Shown in pieces: positions 5,534 through 16,341 of a DNA stretch of 64,000 nucleotides. Position 1 is the first letter of the stretch. Each line of letters opens with the position of its first letter. Made by a program: the position numbers and the translations under genes. Under the pieces are notes generated by a model, which saw only the letters and a program-made list of their open reading frames with translations, did no database searches and had not been told where the DNA came from. Where the stretch lies: assembly GCF_000426605.1 (NCBI RefSeq), contig NZ_AUFR01000006.1, positions 1 to 64,000 on the forward strand, in the 5' to 3' direction. Origin of the DNA: Propionibacterium acidifaciens DSM 21887 (GTDB taxonomy: Bacteria; Actinomycetota; Actinomycetes; Propionibacteriales; Propionibacteriaceae).

Positions 5534-6397
5534 TCAGCGGACCGTGAGCCCGCGCCCGCGGAAGACGTCGCGGACGGCCTCGACCTGCTCGGCGGTCGGC
5601 GGCGGGGTGCTCTCGAGCGCGTAGTCGAGACCGAGGTCGTGCCACTTGTCGCGCCCCATCTGGTGGAAGGGCAGCACCTCGGTGCGGGCGACGTTGGGCC
5701 AGGCCGCGACGGTGTCGGCGACCCGCGCCACATTGCCGGGATCGTCGGTGAGCCCGGGGACGGCGACGAAGCGGACCCACACGGGGGTGCCCCGGGCGGC
5801 CAGCCGGTCGCCGAAGGCCAGCGTCGGGGCCAGTGCCCGGCCGGTGACCCTCTCGTAGGTGTCGGGATCGCCGGACTTCACGTCGAGCAGCACGAGGTCG
5901 ATGTCGTCGAGCATCTCGTCGGTGCAGGCGGCGCCGAGGAAGCCGGACGTGTCGATGCACGTGTGGATGCCCATCGTCCTGGCCCCATGCAGCAGCCTCG
6001 CCGCGAAGGGGGCCTGCATGAGCACCTCGCCGCCGGACAGCGTGATGCCGCCGCCGGTCGCGCCGAAGACGCCGCGGTAGCGGCTGATGCGCGCGAGCAT
6101 GTCGTCCACGCCCACCAGCCGACCCTTGGCCATGAAGAAGGTGTCGGGGTTGTGGCAGTACTGGCAGCGCAGCGGGCAGCCGGCGAAGAAGATCGTCATG
6201 CGGGTGCCCGGACCGTCGACGGCGGTCACGAGCTCCCACGAATGGATCGAGCCGGCGTCGCCGGCCCGTATCGCCTCCAGACGCGCGCCACGGGGCAGGT
6301 CCTCGGTGGTGATCCCATCGAGGCCCGCCCCGTGGAGCCGCCGGGCCGGGGACCTGAACGAGCTGTCCCCGGCCGGCGTCATCGCGTCAGCAGTCAT
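5534..6397 (-). CDS. pflA: Pyruvate formate-lyase activating enzyme
   Basis: A radical S-adenosylmethionine enzyme of 287 residues that installs the glycyl radical on pyruvate formate-lyase. The cluster-binding C-x3-C-x2-C is in AGCPLRCQYCHNPDTF, followed by the SAM-contacting GGGITLSGGEVLMQ and by DTSGFLG and LLDVKSGDP, all typical of PflA. The N-terminus is about 40 residues longer than in Escherichia coli PflA; a second in-frame ATG lies five codons in. It follows the glycyl-radical protein and the large lyase subunit on the same strand, with 14 nt between stop and start, so the three form one operon. Its substrate here must be the separate small protein. Confidence 0.92.
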   Translation of the reverse strand: MTADAMTPAGDSSFRSPARRLHGAGLDGITTEDLPRGARLEAIRAGDAGSIHSWELVTAVDGPGTRMTIFFAGCPLRCQYCHNPDTFFMAKGRLVGVDDMLARISRYRGVFGATGGGITLSGGEVLMQAPFAARLLHGARTMGIHTCIDTSGFLGAACTDEMLDDIDLVLLDVKSGDPDTYERVTGRALAPTLAFGDRLAARGTPVWVRFVAVPGLTDDPGNVARVADTVAAWPNVARTEVLPFHQMGRDKWHDLGLDYALESTPPPTAEQVEAVRDVFRGRGLTVR

Positions 6398-6411: not shown

Positions 6412-6663
6412 TCAGGCCGACTGGTGGAAGGTGCGGCTCAGCACGTCGAGCTGCTGCTCCTTGGTGAGCTTGACGAAGTTCACCGCGTAGCCGGAGACGC
6501 GAACGGTGAGGTTCGGGTACTTCTCGGGGTGCTCGACGGCGTCCTCGAGGGTCTCGCGGTTCAGCACGTTGATGTTGGCGTGGTAGAGACCGTCGGTCGC
6601 CCCGGTCTCCTCGCGGTTCGTCTTCATGTCGGCGACGCGCTCGGCGTAGGTCTTCACGGACAT
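6412..6663 (-). CDS. Free-standing glycyl-radical domain of a split pyruvate formate-lyase
   Basis: An 83-residue protein equal to the last 60 or so residues of pyruvate formate-lyase plus a short extension. It contains the radical site in RVSGYAVNF, preceded by [20 protein letters not shown] and followed by [15 protein letters not shown]. The upstream gene lacks exactly this domain. The gene has its own ATG with AAGGAGAT about 10 nt upstream and is separated from the large subunit's stop by 30 nt, so it is a real gene and not a frameshift product. It resembles GrcA/YfiD, which repairs damaged lyase by supplying a fresh glycyl domain. Here it seems to be the only glycyl domain available to the large subunit. 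Confidence 0.88.
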
Positions 6664-6693
6664 GTCAGATCAGATCTCCTTGTCGTGTGGGGC

Positions 6694-8799
6694 TCAGTAG
6701 CAGTTGCAGTCGTTGGGCAGGAAACCGGCGTCGAGGATGCCGACCAGGTTGGTGACCTGCTCGTCCTTGTCACGGCCGAGGCCCGTGGGGGTGATGGTGT
6801 TCGTCAGCGAGATGCCGTCGAGCGCATCGTTGTAGTCCAGCTTGCCCACGGACAGCATAGAGGCGACCATGCCGTGGGTGTCCATCCCGTTCTCCGGGTT
6901 CGCGCCGGGCGCAAAGGGCGTGCCCTTCTCGTGCCCGGACGGGAAAGCGCCGGTGGCCTTGCCGTAGACGACGTTCGAGGTGATCGTCAGCACGGACTGG
7001 GTCGGGATGGCGTCGCGGTAGAGCTCGATCTCGCGGATCTTGCTCATGATCGTGTGGACGACGGTCGAGGCGATCTCGTCGGCGCGGTCGTCGTCGTTGC
7101 CGTACTTCGGGAAGTCTCCCTCGGTGACGTAGTCGACCACGAGGCCGGTCTCGTCGCGCACCGGGGTGACCGTGGCGTACTTGATGGCGGACAGCGAGTC
7201 GGCGACGATCGACAGGCCGGCGATGCCGCAGCCCAGGGTGCGCACGATGTCGGAGTCGTGCAGGGCCATCTCGATGGCCTCGTAGGCGTAGCGGTCGTGG
7301 CAGTAGTGGATGATGTTGAGCGCCTCGACATAGGTGCCGACGACCCAGTCGAGCATCTTCTCGTAGCGCTCCCAGACGTCGTCGAAGTCGAGGGGGCCGT
7401 CGCCGGACACGGGCTCGAAGCCGTCGGCGACGAGCTTGCCGCTCATCTCGTCGCGGCCTCCGTTGATGGCGTAGAGCAGGGCCTTGGCCGAGTTCACGCG
7501 GGCGCCGAAGAACTGCATCTGCTTGCCCACGCGCATCGGCGACACGCAGCAGGCGATGGCCGCGTCGTCGCCCCAGTGGGCGCGGATGTCCCTGTCGGAC
7601 TCGTACTGGATGGCGCTCGTCTCGATCGAGATGGCGGCGCAGAAGTCCTTGTAGCCCTTCGGGAGCCTCTTGTCCCAGAAGATCGTGATGTTCGGCTCGG
7701 GGGCCGGGCCGAGATTGCGCAGCGTCTGGAGCAGACGGAACGAGGTCTTCGTGACCATGGCGCGGCCGTCGTCGCCGAAGCCGGCGTCCGACCAGGTGGC
7801 CCAGTACGGGTCGCCCGAGAAGATCTGGTCGTAGTCGATGGTTCGCAGGAAGCGCACGATGCGCAGCTTCAGGACGATCGCGTCGATCATCTCCTGGGCC
7901 TCGGACTCCGTGATGAGACCGGCCCGCAGGTCGCGCTCGAAGTAGCAGTCGAGGAAGGCCGACAGTCGGCCGATCGACATGGCGGCGCCGTCCTGGGACT
8001 TCACCGAGGCGAGATAGCCGAAGTACGTCCACTGGACGGCCTCCTTGGCGCTCCTGGCGGGTGCGGAGAGGTCGAAGCCGTAGCCGGCGGCCATCGTCTT
8101 GAGCTTCTTGAGGGCCTTGATCTGCTCGGCGTGCTCCTCGCGGTAGCGGGCCCAGTGCTCGCTGAAGGGCTCGTCGGTGACCTTGTCCTTGTCGGCCTGC
8201 TTCCACTCGATGAGCTTGTCGACGCCGTAGAGGGCGACGCGGCGGTAGTCGCCGATGATGCGGCCGCGGCCGTAGGCGTCGGGCAGGCCGGTGATGATGT
8301 GGGAGCTGCGGGCGGCGCGGATGCGCGGCGTGTAGATGTCGAAGACGGCGTCGTTGTGCGTCTTGCGGTACTTGGTGAAGATCTTCTTGACCTCGGGGTC
8401 GACCTCCTTGCCGGCCTCCTTGATGGCGGTCTCGACCATGCGCCAGCCGCCGTTCGGCATCATGGCGCGCTTGAGCGGCACATCGGTCTGGAGGCCGACG
8501 ATCACGTCGTCGTCGTCGCAGATGTAGCCGGGCCCGAAGGCGTCGATGTCGTTGGGGGTGTGCGTGTCGACGTCGTAGACGCGACGCTTGCGCTCCTCGC
8601 TCAGGTAGTTCTTCTCGAGGTGGTCCCACACGCGGAGGGTCTTCTCCGTGGGGCCGGCGAGGAAGGAGGCGTCTCCTTCATAAGGGGTGTAGTTGCGCTG
8701 GATGAAATCGCGCACGTCGATGGCTTCGGTCCAGGGCCCCTCGACGAAATCGTGCCAGGGGTTCTCGGTCTGGACGGCGTCGGCTTCGGTGATGGTCAC
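6694..8799 (-). CDS. pflB: Pyruvate formate-lyase large subunit lacking the glycyl-radical domain
   Basis: The 701-residue catalytic subunit of formate C-acetyltransferase (pyruvate + CoA to acetyl-CoA + formate). The active-site cysteine pair is in IACCVSPMRVGKQMQ, and the flanking FFGARVNSAKALLYAINGG is as in Escherichia coli PflB. The family usually has about 760 residues and ends in the glycyl-radical loop. Here the chain stops at NDCNCY, just after the TNLVGILDAGFL segment, and the loop is supplied by the next gene. The GTG start at 8799 is supported by AAAGG six bases upstream. The operon runs pflB, glycyl-radical protein, pflA. Confidence 0.93.
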   Translation of the reverse strand: MTITEADAVQTENPWHDFVEGPWTEAIDVRDFIQRNYTPYEGDASFLAGPTEKTLRVWDHLEKNYLSEERKRRVYDVDTHTPNDIDAFGPGYICDDDDVIVGLQTDVPLKRAMMPNGGWRMVETAIKEAGKEVDPEVKKIFTKYRKTHNDAVFDIYTPRIRAARSSHIITGLPDAYGRGRIIGDYRRVALYGVDKLIEWKQADKDKVTDEPFSEHWARYREEHAEQIKALKKLKTMAAGYGFDLSAPARSAKEAVQWTYFGYLASVKSQDGAAMSIGRLSAFLDCYFERDLRAGLITESEAQEMIDAIVLKLRIVRFLRTIDYDQIFSGDPYWATWSDAGFGDDGRAMVTKTSFRLLQTLRNLGPAPEPNITIFWDKRLPKGYKDFCAAISIETSAIQYESDRDIRAHWGDDAAIACCVSPMRVGKQMQFFGARVNSAKALLYAINGGRDEMSGKLVADGFEPVSGDGPLDFDDVWERYEKMLDWVVGTYVEALNIIHYCHDRYAYEAIEMALHDSDIVRTLGCGIAGLSIVADSLSAIKYATVTPVRDETGLVVDYVTEGDFPKYGNDDDRADEIASTVVHTIMSKIREIELYRDAIPTQSVLTITSNVVYGKATGAFPSGHEKGTPFAPGANPENGMDTHGMVASMLSVGKLDYNDALDGISLTNTITPTGLGRDKDEQVTNLVGILDAGFLPNDCNCY

Positions 8800-9289: not shown

Positions 9290-10624
9290 ATGGAGCAGCC
9301 GAGACGTCCGCCGGAGCCGCGCGAGCAGGGCGCGCGGACGACGGCGGGGACGACGGCCGCCGCGATCCGGGCCGGGGACGGGCCCGGCCCGGACATCACC
9401 GGACGGATCCAGCGGGAGATCGACGCCCTCGGCGCGGCAGGCGGCGGTGTCCTGAGGCTGCCGGCGGGCACCCACGCGGTGAGCGGCATCGAGCTGCGCT
9501 CGGGCGTGCACCTGGTACTCGAGGCGGGCGCCGTGCTGCAGGCCATCCCGGCGGCCGACCTGCCGGAGCGGACGATCTCGGTGGCCGAGGAGTCGCGCAG
9601 CGCGATCATCTACGCACGCGGCGCCGACGACATCTCGATCAGCGGCGCCGGCATCATCGACGGCGCCGCCGGGCTCTACGTGCACGGCCTGGACGAGCAC
9701 GGCTATCTGACCCATGAGCGCCACCGTCCGCGCGTCATCGTCCTGGAGAGCTGCTCCAACGTCGAGCTGCGGGGCATCACGATCCGCAACGCCCCGATGT
9801 GGACGCTGCACCTGGTGGCCAGCACCGACTGCCGTCTGGAGGGGCTGACGCTGCGCAACGCGATGGACCTGTCCAACACCGACGGCATCGACATCGACAG
9901 CTGCTCGCGGGTGCAGGTGATCGACTGCGACATCTCGGGCGAGGACGACTCCATCTGCCTCAAGACGACCGCCCAGGCGTGCCCGGCCCTGTCCCCGGCC
10001 TGCGAGGACGTCGTGGTCCGCGGCTGCCGGCTGCGCTCGCACTCCAGCGCCCTCAAGATCGGCTCGGAGACCCACGGCCCGATACGCCGGGTGCGGGTGC
10101 ACGACTGCCGGATCGTCGAGTCGAACCGCGCCTTCGGCATCCAGTCGCGCGACGGCGGCGCGATCACCGACATCGAGGTCGACGGCCTGCGCATCGACAC
10201 CCGGCTGCAGGGCCCCACCTGCTGGGGCTCCGCCGAGCCGGTGCACATCAGCGCACGCGCCCGGCTCGAAGGCGACCGGCCCGGGCGGGTGGACGACGTG
10301 CGCATCAGTGACGTGCGGGGCCGCGCCGAGGGCGCCGTCATCGTCGTCGGCGAGGCCCCGGGCGACATCGGCACCGTCGTGCTGCGCGACATCGACGTGG
10401 AGCTCGTCGTCGGGCGGGGCGTCATGGCGGGCACGGTCGACCTGCGCCCCCCGGTGAACCCCCTCGCCAGGGGCGGTACCGGCATGGACAACGCCTACCG
10501 CATGGACAAGGACCGGGGGCTGCCCTGGGGCGTCGAGCGCATCCCCGGCTGGCCGGTGGGCGTCCTCCTCCGCACGGCTGGGCACGTGGTGCAGGACGAC
10601 GTGCGCGTGACCCGCGTGGACTGA
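9290..10624 (+). CDS. Atypical glycoside hydrolase family 28 protein (polygalacturonase-like)
   Basis: A 444-residue right-handed parallel beta-helix protein of the pectin-hydrolase family. Visible family motifs are SNTDGIDIDS and GEDDSICLKT, which carry the catalytic aspartates. The usual G-H-G block is replaced by SHSSALKIGSETHG, and the usual R-I-K block by a RAFGIQSRDGG stretch, as in a divergent GH28 branch. There is no signal peptide, so it probably acts on imported oligosaccharides in the cytoplasm. ATG 9290 is chosen because GGGAGGGG lies 7-9 nt upstream; ATGs at 9248 and 9251 are less well supported. The next gene is a sugar-kinase-like protein. The exact substrate (galacturonan, rhamnogalacturonan or another pectic side chain) cannot be told. 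Confidence 0.8.
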   Translation: MEQPRRPPEPREQGARTTAGTTAAAIRAGDGPGPDITGRIQREIDALGAAGGGVLRLPAGTHAVSGIELRSGVHLVLEAGAVLQAIPAADLPERTISVAEESRSAIIYARGADDISISGAGIIDGAAGLYVHGLDEHGYLTHERHRPRVIVLESCSNVELRGITIRNAPMWTLHLVASTDCRLEGLTLRNAMDLSNTDGIDIDSCSRVQVIDCDISGEDDSICLKTTAQACPALSPACEDVVVRGCRLRSHSSALKIGSETHGPIRRVRVHDCRIVESNRAFGIQSRDGGAITDIEVDGLRIDTRLQGPTCWGSAEPVHISARARLEGDRPGRVDDVRISDVRGRAEGAVIVVGEAPGDIGTVVLRDIDVELVVGRGVMAGTVDLRPPVNPLARGGTGMDNAYRMDKDRGLPWGVERIPGWPVGVLLRTAGHVVQDDVRVTRVD

Positions 10625-10640
10625 CGTACCGGCGCCCCGT

Positions 10641-10646
10641 TAGACT
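10641..10646 (+). promoter_or_regulatory. -10 element of a leaderless promoter for the BadF-type kinase
   Basis: TAGACT ends 7 nt before ATG 10654, with no ribosome-binding site between, so this gene appears to be transcribed separately from the GH28 gene 29 nt upstream. Confidence 0.45.
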
Positions 10647-10653
10647 CACCCGC

Positions 10654-11616
10654 ATGAGCGATGACGCCCCTGTCCGCGAAGACGCCGGCATCTGCGAGGA
10701 CGAGGTCGTCCTGTGCGTGGACGGCGGGCAGACCGGCACCCGCGCCCAGCTGCGCTGCGAGGGCGTCCCGGTCGCCGAGAGCTCCTACCCGGGAGTGGTG
10801 AACGACCGCCCCCAGATCCCCCAGCTCGCCGCATTCGTCCTCGACGCGCTGCGCACCGCCGACCGGCCCTGCCCCACCATCTCGGTGGGCTCGTCCGGCC
10901 TCGCCGACGACGTGGATCCGGCCGAGCTGCTCTCGCTCGTCCACGCCGCGGGGGTGCGCCACGTGCTGCTGGCCCACGACTCGACGACCGGCTACCTCTG
11001 CGCGATCGGCGACCAGCCGGGCGTCGTCGTGGCCGCCGGAACCGGCGTCGTCACCCTGGCCGTCGGAACGGACGCGGTGGCCCGGGTGGACGGCTGGGGC
11101 TACCTCATCGGCGACGCCGGCTCGGGCTACTGGATCGGCCGTGCCGCACTCGACGCCGTCATGCGCGCCCACGACGGGCGCGGCCGGCCGACCGCGCTGA
11201 GCGGATTCGTCAACCAGGACTTCCCCGACCTGGAGAAGGCCTACCTGGAGCTGCAGGCCGATGACCACAAGGTCAGCCGCATCGCCTCGTACGCCCGGAC
11301 GGTGGCCGGTCTGGCCGCCACGGACGAGATCGCCCGGTCGATCAGCGAGGACGCTGCCACCGAGCTCGCCTCCTCGGCCCTCGCGGGGCTGCACCGGGTG
11401 GGTCAGGACGAACGGCCCGATCCGGCGGTGGGAATGCTCGGCCAGGTCTTCCGCAACGCGGTTCTGCGCGCGCGCTTCGAGGGACTCGTCCGCGAGCGCT
11501 TCGAGGGGGCGAGGATCATCGACGCCAGCGGCAACGGCCTGGCCGGCTGCTTCGCGATGACCCGTCTGGACCCCGACTCGGCCCTGCGGCAGCGGGTGCA
11601 CGAGATTCGTGCGTGA
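10654..11616 (+). CDS. BadF/BadG-type ATPase, N-acetylglucosamine kinase-like
   Basis: A 320-residue member of the ASKHA fold. The first phosphate-binding loop is in CVDGGQTGTRAQL, the second region in VVVAAGTGVVTLAVG, and the GWGYLIGDAGSGYWIG block is typical of bacterial N-acetylglucosamine kinase-like BadF proteins. The likely reaction is ATP-dependent phosphorylation of a sugar or amino sugar in the cytoplasm. It directly follows the GH28 gene, so its substrate could be a product of that enzyme, but that is inference. There are no membrane segments. Confidence 0.75.
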   Translation: MSDDAPVREDAGICEDEVVLCVDGGQTGTRAQLRCEGVPVAESSYPGVVNDRPQIPQLAAFVLDALRTADRPCPTISVGSSGLADDVDPAELLSLVHAAGVRHVLLAHDSTTGYLCAIGDQPGVVVAAGTGVVTLAVGTDAVARVDGWGYLIGDAGSGYWIGRAALDAVMRAHDGRGRPTALSGFVNQDFPDLEKAYLELQADDHKVSRIASYARTVAGLAATDEIARSISEDAATELASSALAGLHRVGQDERPDPAVGMLGQVFRNAVLRARFEGLVRERFEGARIIDASGNGLAGCFAMTRLDPDSALRQRVHEIRA

Positions 11617-11734
11617 CGGCGCCGGGGCTCCCCCGCCGAGACGCGCGCCCGCGCCGTGCCCGACCCCAATTCATGAACATGCCCGTCCTCGGCGCGCCAC
11701 GGCGACGTGGAACTGCGCCCCGCACCCCGTCCTG

Positions 11735-11740
11735 TACTCT
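11735..11740 (+). promoter_or_regulatory. -10 element of a leaderless promoter for the GntR regulator
   Basis: TACTCT ends 7 nt before ATG 11748, and no ribosome-binding site is present. Confidence 0.4.
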
Positions 11741-11747
11741 GTTTGTC

Positions 11748-12473
11748 ATGAAACCCGTAGCGGAGGGCCTTACCAAACTCAGCCCCCTGTCTGCTCACGG
11801 CCTGAGCGATGACGTCTACGACGCCATCCTGAACATTCTGCTCGTCGGCCAGTTCCCTCCTGCGTCCCCACTGTCCATTGACGGGCTGGCCCGGTCGATG
11901 TCGGTGTCCCCCACTCCCGTTCGCGAGGCCCTGGCCCGTCTGGAGCACACCGGCCTGGTGACTCGCGAGGCCCACCGGGGCTACCGCGTCGCGCCACCGA
12001 TGTCCCGAAAACAGATCGCCGAGCTCGTGGATGTTCGCCTCATCCTCGAACCGAATGCCCTGCTCCGCGCCATGCGCGATCCCGAGGCACTGCTCCCGCC
12101 TCTCGAGTCGGCCTTCACCGAGCACAAGGAATGGGCGGCGAGGGTGACCACGCCTCATGCCCTCGAAGACCCCGTACTGGTCAAACGGTACTTCGAGTCG
12201 GACTGGTTGTTCCACCAGGTGATTCTCGACCATTGCGACAACAGATATCTGAGCCGTGCGGTGAATGCCCTGTCGTTCAGCGTGCATCGAATGCGTCAGG
12301 CCCTCGGAACGCAGATGAGCGATGCCTCCGCAGCGATCGACGAGCACTCCAGAATCCTTGAGCGGGTCTCCGCGGGTGACGCGGCTGACGCCGCCGACGC
12401 GATGACCGAGCACCTCGAGAAGGTGCTCGTCCGCTCCACGTCGGATGCCCCCGACGACCCGGACGAGCGGTGA
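11748..12473 (+). CDS. GntR-family (FCD domain) transcriptional regulator
   Basis: A 241-residue regulator. The N-terminal winged helix is clear (IDGLARSMSVSPTPVREALA, then HRGYRV), and the all-helical ligand-binding FCD domain follows, with DVRLILEPNALL, FHQVILDHCDNRYL and EHSRILERV. FCD regulators usually sense organic or sugar acids. ATG 11748 is chosen because a -10-like element lies just upstream; a longer frame from 11613 has no support. It is convergent with the MFS/dehydrogenase/TIM-barrel operon that ends at 12605, and it is the best candidate to read the 15-nt operator shared at 16388 and 28385. Confidence 0.85.
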   Translation: MKPVAEGLTKLSPLSAHGLSDDVYDAILNILLVGQFPPASPLSIDGLARSMSVSPTPVREALARLEHTGLVTREAHRGYRVAPPMSRKQIAELVDVRLILEPNALLRAMRDPEALLPPLESAFTEHKEWAARVTTPHALEDPVLVKRYFESDWLFHQVILDHCDNRYLSRAVNALSFSVHRMRQALGTQMSDASAAIDEHSRILERVSAGDAADAADAMTEHLEKVLVRSTSDAPDDPDER

Positions 12474-12604
12474 GGGAGACCCGGAGACCGAGGCGGAGCG
12501 CCCAGATCCCTTCTGACCGGGGATTCTTCCTGGCGCCGCCCGGGTCTGCACAAGCTCCCCGGACGAGGAGCCGGACCTCCTCCACCGCTTCCGCCTTCAG
12601 GCGC

Positions 12605-13909
12605 TCAGCAGGACATGACCTTCAGGGGTCCCGCGGGCCCGGCCTTCGCCCGACTCTTGACGGCCTTCGCGGCAAGAGTTCCGGCAGCGCCCAGGAGCAG
12701 GACGACGGCGAGGAACAGCATTCCCACCTTGGTGGTCCCCGTGGACTGCACGATCACGCCCACCACATAGGGACCAACGAAACCGCCCAGATTCCCAAAG
12801 CTGTTGATCGCAGCGATCCCGACGGCGGCGGTCGCCCCGACCACGTACAGGGTCGGCAGCGCCCAGAAGACGCCGGCGATCGAGTACAGGCAGAAGGCCG
12901 CCAGCGAGAGGCAGGCCAGCTGGGCCACGGGGGAGGCGACCAGTGTCGAGAACCCGATGCCCACCGCGGCCCCGGCGAAGATGGCGGCCAGCGGAATCCA
13001 GTTCTCACTGAATCTCGCCGCCCACCGGGAGGTGATCCAGATTCCGATCAGAGCGAAGATGTACGGCACCGCCGTGAGAAGACCGGTGTGAAGATCACTG
13101 TTGGCGAACTTCTTGACGACCTGCGGCAGCCAGTAGGACAGACCGTAGATCCCCACCGTCGACGGGAAGAACAGCGCGGCGAACAGGAGAACGTTCTTGT
13201 CCAGGAGGGCCTTGAAGGGATTGCCGTGGTCGACCTGCCCGAGCTCCTGCCGGTCCTTCTCCAGCTCGGCGTCGATCCAGTCGGCCTCCTCCGCCGTGAT
13301 CCACGGCGCCGTACGTGGGTTGTCGTGCAGGAAGAGCAGTGTCGGGATCGCCAGGAGGACGGCCACGCCGCCCACGACGACGAACAACCACTGCCACCCG
13401 ACGAGCCCGAGACCGGTCACACCGAGCAGCCAACCGGCAAGTGGGCTCATGACGAGGAAGGCCAGGGGCGCCGCCATCACGAAGACCCCCGTCGCCTTCG
13501 TCCTGTTGCGCTGCGGGTACCACTCGGTGAGGTAGTAGAGGATGCCCGGATAGAATCCGGCTTCGGCCGCGCCGAGCAGGAATCGCAGGATGTAGAAGGA
13601 GATCGGCCCCTGCGCAGCCGCCATCAACGCGGTGATCAGGCCCCAGGACACGAGGATGCGGGCGAACCACCGCCGGGGCCCGACCTTCGGCATGATCCAG
13701 TTGCTGGGCACCTCGAAGAGGAAGTAGGCCAGGAAGAAGAGCCCCGCGCCGAAGCCGTAGGCGGCCGAGTCGACGCCGATGTCGGTCGTCATGTGCAGCT
13801 GAGCGAAACCGACCGCGGAACGGTCCACGTACGCCGCCGTGTACAGGACCATCACGAACGGGATGATGCGCAGGGTGATCTTGCGGGTCAGCGACTTCTC
13901 GATGTCCAT
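12605..13909 (-). CDS. MFS transporter, anion:cation symporter type
   Basis: A 434-residue carrier with about 12 membrane spans. The N-terminal signature PFVMVLYTAAYVDRSAVGFA and the motif LRFLLGAAEAGFYPGILYY are typical of the tartrate/hexuronate/sugar-acid branch of the major facilitator superfamily. It is the third gene of an operon that begins with the TIM-barrel protein at 16341; only 3 nt separate it from the dehydrogenase upstream. It should import the sugar acid handled by those two enzymes. The substrate is not known. Confidence 0.88.
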   Translation of the reverse strand: MDIEKSLTRKITLRIIPFVMVLYTAAYVDRSAVGFAQLHMTTDIGVDSAAYGFGAGLFFLAYFLFEVPSNWIMPKVGPRRWFARILVSWGLITALMAAAQGPISFYILRFLLGAAEAGFYPGILYYLTEWYPQRNRTKATGVFVMAAPLAFLVMSPLAGWLLGVTGLGLVGWQWLFVVVGGVAVLLAIPTLLFLHDNPRTAPWITAEEADWIDAELEKDRQELGQVDHGNPFKALLDKNVLLFAALFFPSTVGIYGLSYWLPQVVKKFANSDLHTGLLTAVPYIFALIGIWITSRWAARFSENWIPLAAIFAGAAVGIGFSTLVASPVAQLACLSLAAFCLYSIAGVFWALPTLYVVGATAAVGIAAINSFGNLGGFVGPYVVGVIVQSTGTTKVGMLFLAVVLLLGAAGTLAAKAVKSRAKAGPAGPLKVMSC

Positions 13910-13912
13910 CGA

Positions 13913-14923
13913 TCAGCCCTCGGAGGGATCCGGTGACGTCGGCTGCCCGGAAGCCCCGCCCGTGACGCCCTCCGGAGCGGGACCGAGGTCCGCGAGAAGC
14001 TCCGACATGCGCGCATAGGCCTTGTTCCGGTAGGCGATCAACGCGGCCTTCGTCCCATCATCGAAATCACCGGTGATGCCCTTCCCGTTCTTGACGCCCA
14101 AGCGCCCCTCGGCGACCGCGTCGGAGAGCATCTTCGGAGTGGCGAGCCGGGGGCCGTAGGCCTCCTCGAAGGTCTTGAAGCAGTTGGCGTAGACATCCAG
14201 ACCGGCTTGGTCGGCGATGGCGAAGGGACCGAAGAAGCCGAGTCGGAAGCCGAAGGTGGTCCGCACGATGACGTCGACGTCCTCGGGCGTCGCAACGCCC
14301 TCTTCGACGCAGGAGGTCGCCTCCTTGAGCAGGGCGTACTGCAGCCGGTTCAACACCATTCCGGGGCGGTCAGCCACCTGGGCGCCCTGACGACCGCAGC
14401 GAGCCAGCACGTCCTTCACGAGAGCGACGGTCCCTGGCGTCGTCGCCTCACCGACGACCAGCTCCACACCCGGAATGAACGGCGCGGGGTTGGAGAAGTG
14501 CACCGTCATGAAGCGTTCAGGACGCTCCACGGCGGGCGCCAGCACTCGAACCGGGATCGTCGACGTGTTCGTCCCGATGATGGCGTCGGGCCGCGCGCTC
14601 CCCGATATCCTCTCGAGAACGGGCATCTTGACCTCGGGCTTCTCGAACACGGCCTCCTCGATGAAGTCGACGTCCCCGACCGCCTCCTCGATGGTGGTGC
14701 CGCAGCTGAGATTCGACTTGATGATCTCGACGCTCCCGGGCCTGTAGAGGCCCTGGTCCTCGAAGTCCTGGGCCTCGTCGAGCAGACGGGCGAACTGCTT
14801 CTTCGTCAACTCCGGATCACCATCGACCACTGTGACCCGCATGCCGGCAAGGGCCAGGCTCTGCGCGATACCGCCTCCCATGTATCCTGCACCGACGACG
14901 GCCACGCTGTTGATTTTCTCCAT
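13913..14923 (-). CDS. 3-hydroxyacyl-CoA dehydrogenase-family oxidoreductase, L-gulonate dehydrogenase-like
   Basis: A 336-residue NAD(P)-dependent enzyme. The dinucleotide fold reads VAVVGAGYMGGGIAQSLALAG. The family block IIGTNTSTIPV and the catalytic histidine segment FMTVHFSNPAPFIPGVELV, then DRPGMVLNRLQYAL, follow. The family includes 3-hydroxybutyryl-CoA, L-carnitine and L-gulonate 3-dehydrogenases. Because it lies between a sugar-type TIM barrel and a sugar-acid carrier, with no CoA enzyme nearby, I infer a hydroxy sugar acid as substrate, giving a 3-oxo acid. The start at 14923 has AGGAG 6-7 nt upstream; a frame reaching 15418 is an artefact of high G+C. Confidence 0.8.
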   Translation of the reverse strand: MEKINSVAVVGAGYMGGGIAQSLALAGMRVTVVDGDPELTKKQFARLLDEAQDFEDQGLYRPGSVEIIKSNLSCGTTIEEAVGDVDFIEEAVFEKPEVKMPVLERISGSARPDAIIGTNTSTIPVRVLAPAVERPERFMTVHFSNPAPFIPGVELVVGEATTPGTVALVKDVLARCGRQGAQVADRPGMVLNRLQYALLKEATSCVEEGVATPEDVDVIVRTTFGFRLGFFGPFAIADQAGLDVYANCFKTFEEAYGPRLATPKMLSDAVAEGRLGVKNGKGITGDFDDGTKAALIAYRNKAYARMSELLADLGPAPEGVTGGASGQPTSPDPSEG

Positions 14924-15414
14924 TGAAATCTCCTGATGGTGTTCACTTGAATGGTTTGATCTGTCATGAGGCTGCTCACAGGAGCCCGTTGGATCCATCG
15001 CTCCTGTAATGCCATGGAGCTCGTCCGGAAACCGTGGACGCCGAGCGGAATCCTGGCCGGAGGATCTGCGGGGACGGAGGCCTGAACGAGCTTCATGCCC
15101 ACTGGTGCCGTGAATGAATGATCCTCCGTGCGTCTGCGTCCACCGGGAAGGGCGGGGCCGTGGCGCGGAGGACCCATCCGCCTGTCGGCCCGTCGGCCCC
15201 GGCGAGGCATGGGCGAGCCCGTCCCGCTCCATAGCGGAGCCGCGCGCGAGACGGCGACGGCCCGACGAGGCCCCGGGTGCACCGCGGAGCACGAGGACGC
15301 GGGATCCGCCGGGCCGGATCGGGCCGGCCCGGTGACTTCGGGCTCCCGTGTCGCGACAGCGCGTGTCGCGGCGGCCCCGGTGGAGCAGGCTGAACGACGA
15401 TCCGGTCACCGGCA
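14924..15414. other. Unusually long gap inside the TIM-barrel/dehydrogenase operon
   Basis: About 490 nt between two genes of the same strand. No frame has a ribosome-binding site or recognisable family. A small hairpin (ACAGGAGC at 14979-14986 against GCTCCTGT at 15000-15007) lies just upstream of the dehydrogenase. The gap may hold a separate promoter or a lost gene. Confidence 0.4.
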
Positions 15415-16341
15415 TCAACCGAAGGTGCGCAGTGCCCCCCGCAGGACCTGGCGGATGTACTCGGCGTTCTCGGCGCCGACGCCCAGCCAGTCGGAACCGT
15501 AGTGCTCCGTCATGAAGGGCCCCCTGTAACCGACCTGGACGGCCCGCCTGATCACAGCACGATAATTGACGACACCGTACTTGAGCGGCACCGGCGCCGA
15601 CATGTACGCGCCGGTCACGTCATCCTCGTCACGGATGTAGCTCTTGATGTGCCAGTAGTTCGAGAACGGCAGGAGCCTCTCATACATCTCCTCGCCCTTC
15701 GGCATCGGCCGGTGAAGCCTGATGAGATTCCCGATGTCCGGGTTGATGCCGACGGCGGGGTGATCCACGTCCTTGTGGAACTGGAGCGCACCCTCAACGG
15801 TGCCGATGAAGGTGTCCTCGTACATCTCCAGACTGATCTGCAGTCCCAGCCGTTGAGCGTGATCGGCGAGTTCACGAACACGCTCGACGGCGAGATCGTA
15901 CAGGGCGGGGTCGTCATGATGGCCATCGGCCAACCAGAACCACAGGGCCTCCTTCTGCGGCCCCGTGAGTTCCTGCTGGAAGCCGATGTTGACGATCGTG
16001 GCGCCGAGCGCGGACGCCCTGTCGATGGTGCGGTGCACAAGAGCGAGGTTCTCCTCGCCCCGCTCCGCATCGATGACGCTGTTCCTGCCGATCGACATCG
16101 CCGCGCAGGCCAGACCCGCCTCCTCCAGCAGGACCTGGAACTGAGCGAACCGCTCCTCGCTGATGTCGGCGAGAGGCACCCAGTCATCCATGGGATCGAA
16201 GTGCCGGAACCCCAGCTCGGCGACCTGGAGGAGCTGGTCGCGCCACGTCTCCAACGGAGCCTCCGCAATCGGGGTCCCGTCCTCGGCCACCGGCCCGAAG
16301 TTCATCTTGCACGCGATCGGCCACGCATCAGCTGTGTACAT
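15415..16341 (-). CDS. Sugar phosphate isomerase/epimerase-family TIM-barrel protein
   Basis: A 308-residue protein of the xylose isomerase-like TIM-barrel superfamily (AP endonuclease 2 family). Likely metal ligands are seen in ISLEMYED, in GINPDIGN, in YWHIKSYI and in the terminal FMTEHYGSDW, spaced as in epimerases of this superfamily. The start at 16341 follows GGAGAGGA. It is first in an operon with a 3-hydroxyacid dehydrogenase and an MFS carrier. The superfamily includes OiaC-type 3-oxo-acid decarboxylases, so it may decarboxylate or isomerise the dehydrogenase product. The substrate is unassigned. The shared 15-nt operator lies about 50 nt upstream. Confidence 0.75.
   Translation of the reverse strand: MYTADAWPIACKMNFGPVAEDGTPIAEAPLETWRDQLLQVAELGFRHFDPMDDWVPLADISEERFAQFQVLLEEAGLACAAMSIGRNSVIDAERGEENLALVHRTIDRASALGATIVNIGFQQELTGPQKEALWFWLADGHHDDPALYDLAVERVRELADHAQRLGLQISLEMYEDTFIGTVEGALQFHKDVDHPAVGINPDIGNLIRLHRPMPKGEEMYERLLPFSNYWHIKSYIRDEDDVTGAYMSAPVPLKYGVVNYRAVIRRAVQVGYRGPFMTEHYGSDWLGVGAENAEYIRQVLRGALRTFG

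Follow-up and report, generated by a model that had tools for sequence, protein, structure and literature searches.

Pyruvate formate-lyase (PFL) is a model glycyl-radical enzyme, whose radical loop and active site lie, in the textbook, on a single chain. The window (the whole stretch of 64,000 nucleotides analysed here, from Propionibacterium acidifaciens DSM 21887) carries on its minus strand one cluster in which pflB is followed by a small radical gene and then by pflA (Table 1), the product of the latter scoring above the cut-off of the PFL-activase model TIGR02493 (231.75 bits). The large and the small ORF are in a common frame, yet two in-frame TGA codons intervene, and the small gene has, as originally predicted, a ribosome-binding site and a start of its own. 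Adjoining the cluster, positions 9290-15418 hold genes for a glycosyl hydrolase of family 28, a BadF-type ATPase, a GntR/FCD regulator, an MFS transporter and a 3-hydroxyacyl-CoA dehydrogenase, which from their sequences look like a cluster for the use of sugar acids or pectin. CRP-like sites number 15 in the window against 14.9 expected, with none upstream of pflB.

Table 1. The pfl cluster of the window and the junction between its two PFL genes (window positions).
Feature	Coordinates	Strand	Description
pflB, large chain	6694..8799	(-)	701 aa; GTG start, TGA stop; without the glycyl-radical loop
intergenic gap	6664..6693	(-)	30 bases; AAGGAG Shine-Dalgarno and second in-frame TGA
glycyl-radical subunit (NCBIfam GrcA2)	6412..6663	(-)	83 aa; ATG start; RVSGYAVNF
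pflA, PFL-activating radical SAM enzyme	5534..6397	(-)	287 aa; TIGR02493 290.9 bits

The large chain ends in ...NLVGILDAGFLPNDCNCY, and its alignment with Escherichia coli PflB reaches residue F693, i.e. it stops just before the radical loop, as had been proposed from the sequence of the window. It gives 664 bits with PF02901 and has the active-site cysteine pair (C417/C418; CC in all 50 split rows compared), but no copy of the RVxGY loop, which sits on the 83-residue ORF. On the small chain, the alignment with E. coli PflB begins at residue 22 (E. coli 698) and extends to residue 82; this chain consists of an N-terminal extension (1-24), a barrel strand at about 28-33 and the part bearing the radical glycine, G58, which corresponds to E. 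coli G734. The Pfam Gly_radical model (PF01228, 106 positions) is thus divided, positions 1-65 matching the large chain (43.7 bits) and positions 62-106 the small one (64.9 bits). The one-chain model TIGR01255 is divided likewise, so that neither chain alone reaches its cut-off of 994.2 bits (983.9 for the large chain, 76.4 for the small one). On the other hand the small chain belongs to the GrcA2 family (NF008341, 161.9 bits for a cut-off of 145), a model that all 51 small proteins of the split loci match with E values of at most 1e-10.

Whether the split is fixed in relatives had been left as a question, and the answer is twofold: it is not fixed within the genus, and it is widespread in Actinomycetota. 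Four Propionibacterium genomes comprise two with the split, one with a one-chain enzyme (G077) and one without any match. In the survey of the family 71 of 198 genomes have a Gly_radical match, 20 of these 71 in two halves (including G141 and G558, whose frames are broken); in the sample of the class there are 45 genomes with a match among 394, three of them with two halves, the window's own included. Among the best 80 of 563 loci for the large chain in named genomes, 33 are split, 46 one-chain and one incomplete, counts which are not frequencies, a split protein having served to rank the loci by similarity. The 33 split loci belong to 12 named genera from six families (Actinomyces, Corynebacterium, Propionibacterium, Rothia, Brachybacterium, Arcanobacterium, Varibaculum, Actinobaculum, Neoactinobaculum, Trueperella, Helcobacillus and Pseudactinotalea), plus one unplaced Propionibacteriaceae genome; the one-chain loci of the same 80 include Bifidobacterium, Gardnerella, Sanguibacter, Cellulomonas and Microbacterium. 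The closest named relative in this set is Propionibacterium australiense, 95% identical over the large chain and with a split junction as well.

Both chains look conserved by selection, as judged from their sequences. A comparison of the window with P. australiense gives the large chain a dN/dS of 0.16 and the small chain one of 0.08, with 0.09 in the extension and no amino-acid change in the domain; nine further pairs range from 0 to 0.46 in the extension and from 0 to 0.29 in the domain. The extension is common to the small proteins and missing from one-chain PFLs, and some of its residues hardly vary (T5 in 48 of 51, F or Y at position 6 in 51, R9 in 51, M13 in 49 and R17 in 51). On the large chain three positions mark the split rows. 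H582 is present in 50/50 of them, against 0/24 related one-chain, 1/10 Bifidobacteriaceae and 1/17 outgroup rows; for A578 the counts are 48/50, 2/24, 0/10 and 3/17, the window's own chain being one of the two split rows with S at 578, and for S516 they are 47/50, 1/24, 0/10 and 2/17. We infer that H582, A578 and S516 may form a docking patch for the small chain. The one-chain PFL of Sanguibacter retains S516 alone.

Modelling of the two chains against E. coli PflB, suggested with the original prediction, agrees with a common fold. In an AlphaFold2 model where they were joined by an artificial tether, with TGA read as glycine (mean pLDDT 82, pTM 0.87; the tether, 697-712, is disordered), 747 residues of the pair superpose on the E. 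coli enzyme (2PFL) at 1.9 A, with Z 51.3 and about 56% identity, through residue 759. Residues 6-20 of the small chain form a helix (block pLDDT 78 and 88). When this chain is modelled alone the same blocks drop to 70 and 61, strand 28-33 is absent and residues 20-33 fall below 50. This difference fits a docking of the extension without proving it, since both tether and homology favour docking in such a model and only 11 of the 67 rows used for it carry the extension.

The common frame of the two window ORFs could evoke a sequencing error, a pseudogene or a programmed read-through to one joined protein. Two other observations go in this direction. In Corynebacterium sp. Marseille-P4321 (L170; 1684-4092, plus strand; counted above among the 46 one-chain loci) both proteins are encoded by one continuous ORF running through the former ribosome-binding site and start; it is the sole row with a relic of the start of the small gene, it retains H582, A578 and S516, and it results either from a natural fusion or from a one-codon error. 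Moreover the split loci of G141 (L041/L234) and G558 (L113/L235) have disrupted reading frames, by decay or by assembly error. Nevertheless we found 51 distinct split junctions, all cut at the same loop, with gaps of 4-225 bases. In 50 of them the end of the large chain lies 4 to 12 residues past a DxGF or DxGM motif (Arcanobacterium has a variant of the motif), and a Shine-Dalgarno-like core is found within 20 bases before the start of each of the 51 small genes. The offset between the two frames is 0 in 17 junctions, 1 in 21 and 2 in 13, which excludes read-through or frameshift, as do the two in-frame TGA codons in the window; the number of junctions and the low dN/dS rule out error and pseudogene. 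An accident of sequencing at the stop between the genes, which would have undone the original prediction, is hardly credible, and so is a joined product.

The small protein might also be a spare part as in E. coli, the large chain working alone or a full-length PFL being encoded elsewhere. The name given to the family by NCBI, "autonomous glycyl radical cofactor GrcA2", goes this way, but the small chain reaches just 93.3 bits with the GrcA/YfiD model (TIGR04365, cut-off 170) and the large chain lacks an RVxGY loop. The genome (3.04 Mb in 85 contigs, rated 100% complete) was searched for a hidden full-length PFL, and no PFL-like or Gly_radical match was found besides the large chain and the two halves of the domain. 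Full-length PFL was likewise found in 0 of the 21 split genomes searched, a set that did not comprise G558. A single PFL-like gene is present in 18 of the 21 (in one genome as two contig pieces), and G141 has no PFL-like match because its gene is broken. Two genomes, G019 and G121, also encode a different glycyl-radical enzyme, full-length, whose identity in the matched stretch is about 25-26%. G656 and G203, considered as cases of lone radical domains, are uninformative, both domains lying at contig ends. A role as spare part is thus very improbable. A large chain without radical domain, the lack of any other PFL and the conservation of both chains together indicate that two chains should be needed, as the original prediction had it. 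Against this, one may object that G077, a close relative in the same genus, manages with one chain. On the sequence evidence we nevertheless consider it quite probable that the locus encodes a natural, obligate two-chain PFL whose radical subunit can be exchanged.

In this pair the large chain has kept the catalytic barrel and C417/C418, and the last strand and the radical loop are on the 83-residue chain; the assembly would be non-covalent, with the N-terminal helix of the small chain docked onto the large one. PflA would install the radical on G58, which would pass it to the cysteine pair, and the cysteine radical would convert pyruvate and CoA into acetyl-CoA and formate. Less certainly, an oxygen cut at G58 might leave no covalent stub on the large chain, a fresh small chain swapping in. 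That the renewal of the oxygen-cut part is the purpose of the split is plausible, though somewhat less likely than not. The need for two chains could as well bring another gain than oxygen repair: either PflA reaches a free small chain more easily, or separate translation adjusts the dosage of the subunits. This explanation is possible, though we would not call it likely. The separate ribosome-binding sites seen at every junction speak for it, as do the junction folds: 27 junctions were folded, the 30-base gap of the window being too short to enter this set, and nine gave a z of -2 or lower versus shuffles, all nine among the 11 junctions that measure at least 79 bases, and with sequences unlike one another. 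Strong stem-loops lie between the genes at L155, L156, L159, L161, L167, L168, L169, L176 and L181, and stem-loops at this place perhaps set different amounts of the two chains. Haem-copper oxidases over the cut-off occur in 11/21 split versus 15/23 one-chain genomes, i.e. without association when kinship is ignored, which lends no support to the oxygen-repair idea. At the opposite, stable folds concern only nine of the 27 junctions, the gap of the window is short, and E. coli PflA acts poorly on free YfiD according to Andorfer 2021 (PMC8683613).

The history of the split is not settled, because in our trees one-chain PFLs of Bifidobacteriaceae and of other Propionibacteriaceae fall inside the split group; taken literally, this nesting means that a one-chain PFL would have been regained. 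The tree of 102 rows was built without three broken or partial large chains (L041, L113, L114), four other glycyl-radical enzymes (L046, L047, L054, L057), two duplicates (L033, L118) and one incomplete locus (L216), and was thinned of part of the outgroup, of the Bifidobacteriaceae and of the other one-chain rows; 35 further rows were thinned from it for the bootstrap and AU analyses. The split rows form one clade in 0% of 200 bootstrap trees. However, the AU test does not reject a tree that unites the split rows and the Corynebacterium fusion in a single clade (p = 0.2, 25.6 log units lower), the trees have short inner branches, and the nested one-chain PFLs, Ancillula excepted, keep by eye the loop length of the outgroup, so that we do not claim a re-fusion. 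The shared N-terminal extension argues for a single origin of the split in Actinomycetes, where it would be old.

A second split came from the sample of the phylum, in which 66 of 396 genomes match the GrcA2 model, two of them over the cut-off, and which yielded free-standing radical domains in two families (f61 and f82) of another class. This class is probably Coriobacteriia. Of the 21 genomes with such domains in the two families 20 were fetched (L256-L275), and each of the 20 has a large chain that matches TIGR01255 from position 1 to 665-670 and a separate ORF that matches it from 655-665 to 743-744. No one-chain PFL of this type was seen in the 20 genomes, further matches being far weaker and below the cut-off. 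Here the small chain holds the helix that in the window remains on the large chain. Four of the small proteins were scanned, and all four exceed the cut-off of GrcA3 (NF038360). Many of these loci have a long acidic, Cys-containing tail on the large chain. In a quick tree of 39 rows, placing the two kinds of split in one clade is rejected (AU p = 0.00013), which indicates that the split architecture arose twice. We would tentatively go further: PFL may have been converted at least twice into an enzyme of two subunits, the radical one being disposable in each case; in Actinomycetes a new docking helix (T5, F/Y6, R9, M13, R17) and the split-specific H582 patch might replace the covalent link, the oxygen-cut 83-residue chain being exchanged with no stub left over, whereas in E. 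coli YfiD has to displace one.

Both small families were already named by NCBIfam, GrcA2 and GrcA3, as an "autonomous cofactor". These names may mislead, since in the genomes concerned the small protein seems to be a subunit that the enzyme requires. In a partial literature search, outside of which stood most subscription papers and bioRxiv, we found no paper on a naturally split PFL. The PDB entries 38LA and 38LB are PFL sequences to which neither the small protein of the window nor the GrcA3 type aligns; 38LB shares the tail of the GrcA3-type loci, and 38LA ends at LGKED and may, by its sequence, be either a natural form or a construct. The name GrcA2 and these PFLs without radical domain make it likely that others are aware of the split. 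A natural split almost at the artificial cut of E. coli PFL offers a ready system to study the docking of the radical domain, the access of PflA to this domain and the question whether the oxygen-sensitive part alone can be renewed in a cell.

Compared with known systems, the pair of the window shares with E. coli PflB (TIGR01255) the barrel, the cysteine pair, the radical loop and the type of activase, but E. coli PflB holds the radical domain in its single chain and without N-terminal extension. With E. coli GrcA/YfiD (TIGR04365) it shares a free-standing radical domain acting in trans on PFL; GrcA/YfiD, however, is the partner of a full-length PflB, and its N-terminal half is unlike the small chain of the window. 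The system of GrcA3 (NF038360) and truncated PFL is similar in that the large chain lacks the radical domain, which resides in a separate 83-residue protein; it differs by an earlier cut, by the helix placed before the radical domain on the small chain, and by its independent origin. An artificial precedent exists. E. coli PFL truncated to residues 1-695 (tPFL) and complemented with YfiD has, once activated, wild-type activity, although binding was undetectable by ITC and the radical yield 32-fold lower, according to the same study (PMC8683613); in vivo, PflB-G734A with GrcA yields an intermediate amount of formate (PMC12338860). In principle, then, the radical of a working enzyme can reside on a second chain. 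The tPFL:YfiD couple resembles that of the window by its two chains and by a cut at almost the same point; it was made in the laboratory and docks weakly, whereas the natural pair has a conserved extension, and docking has probably been improved in the latter.
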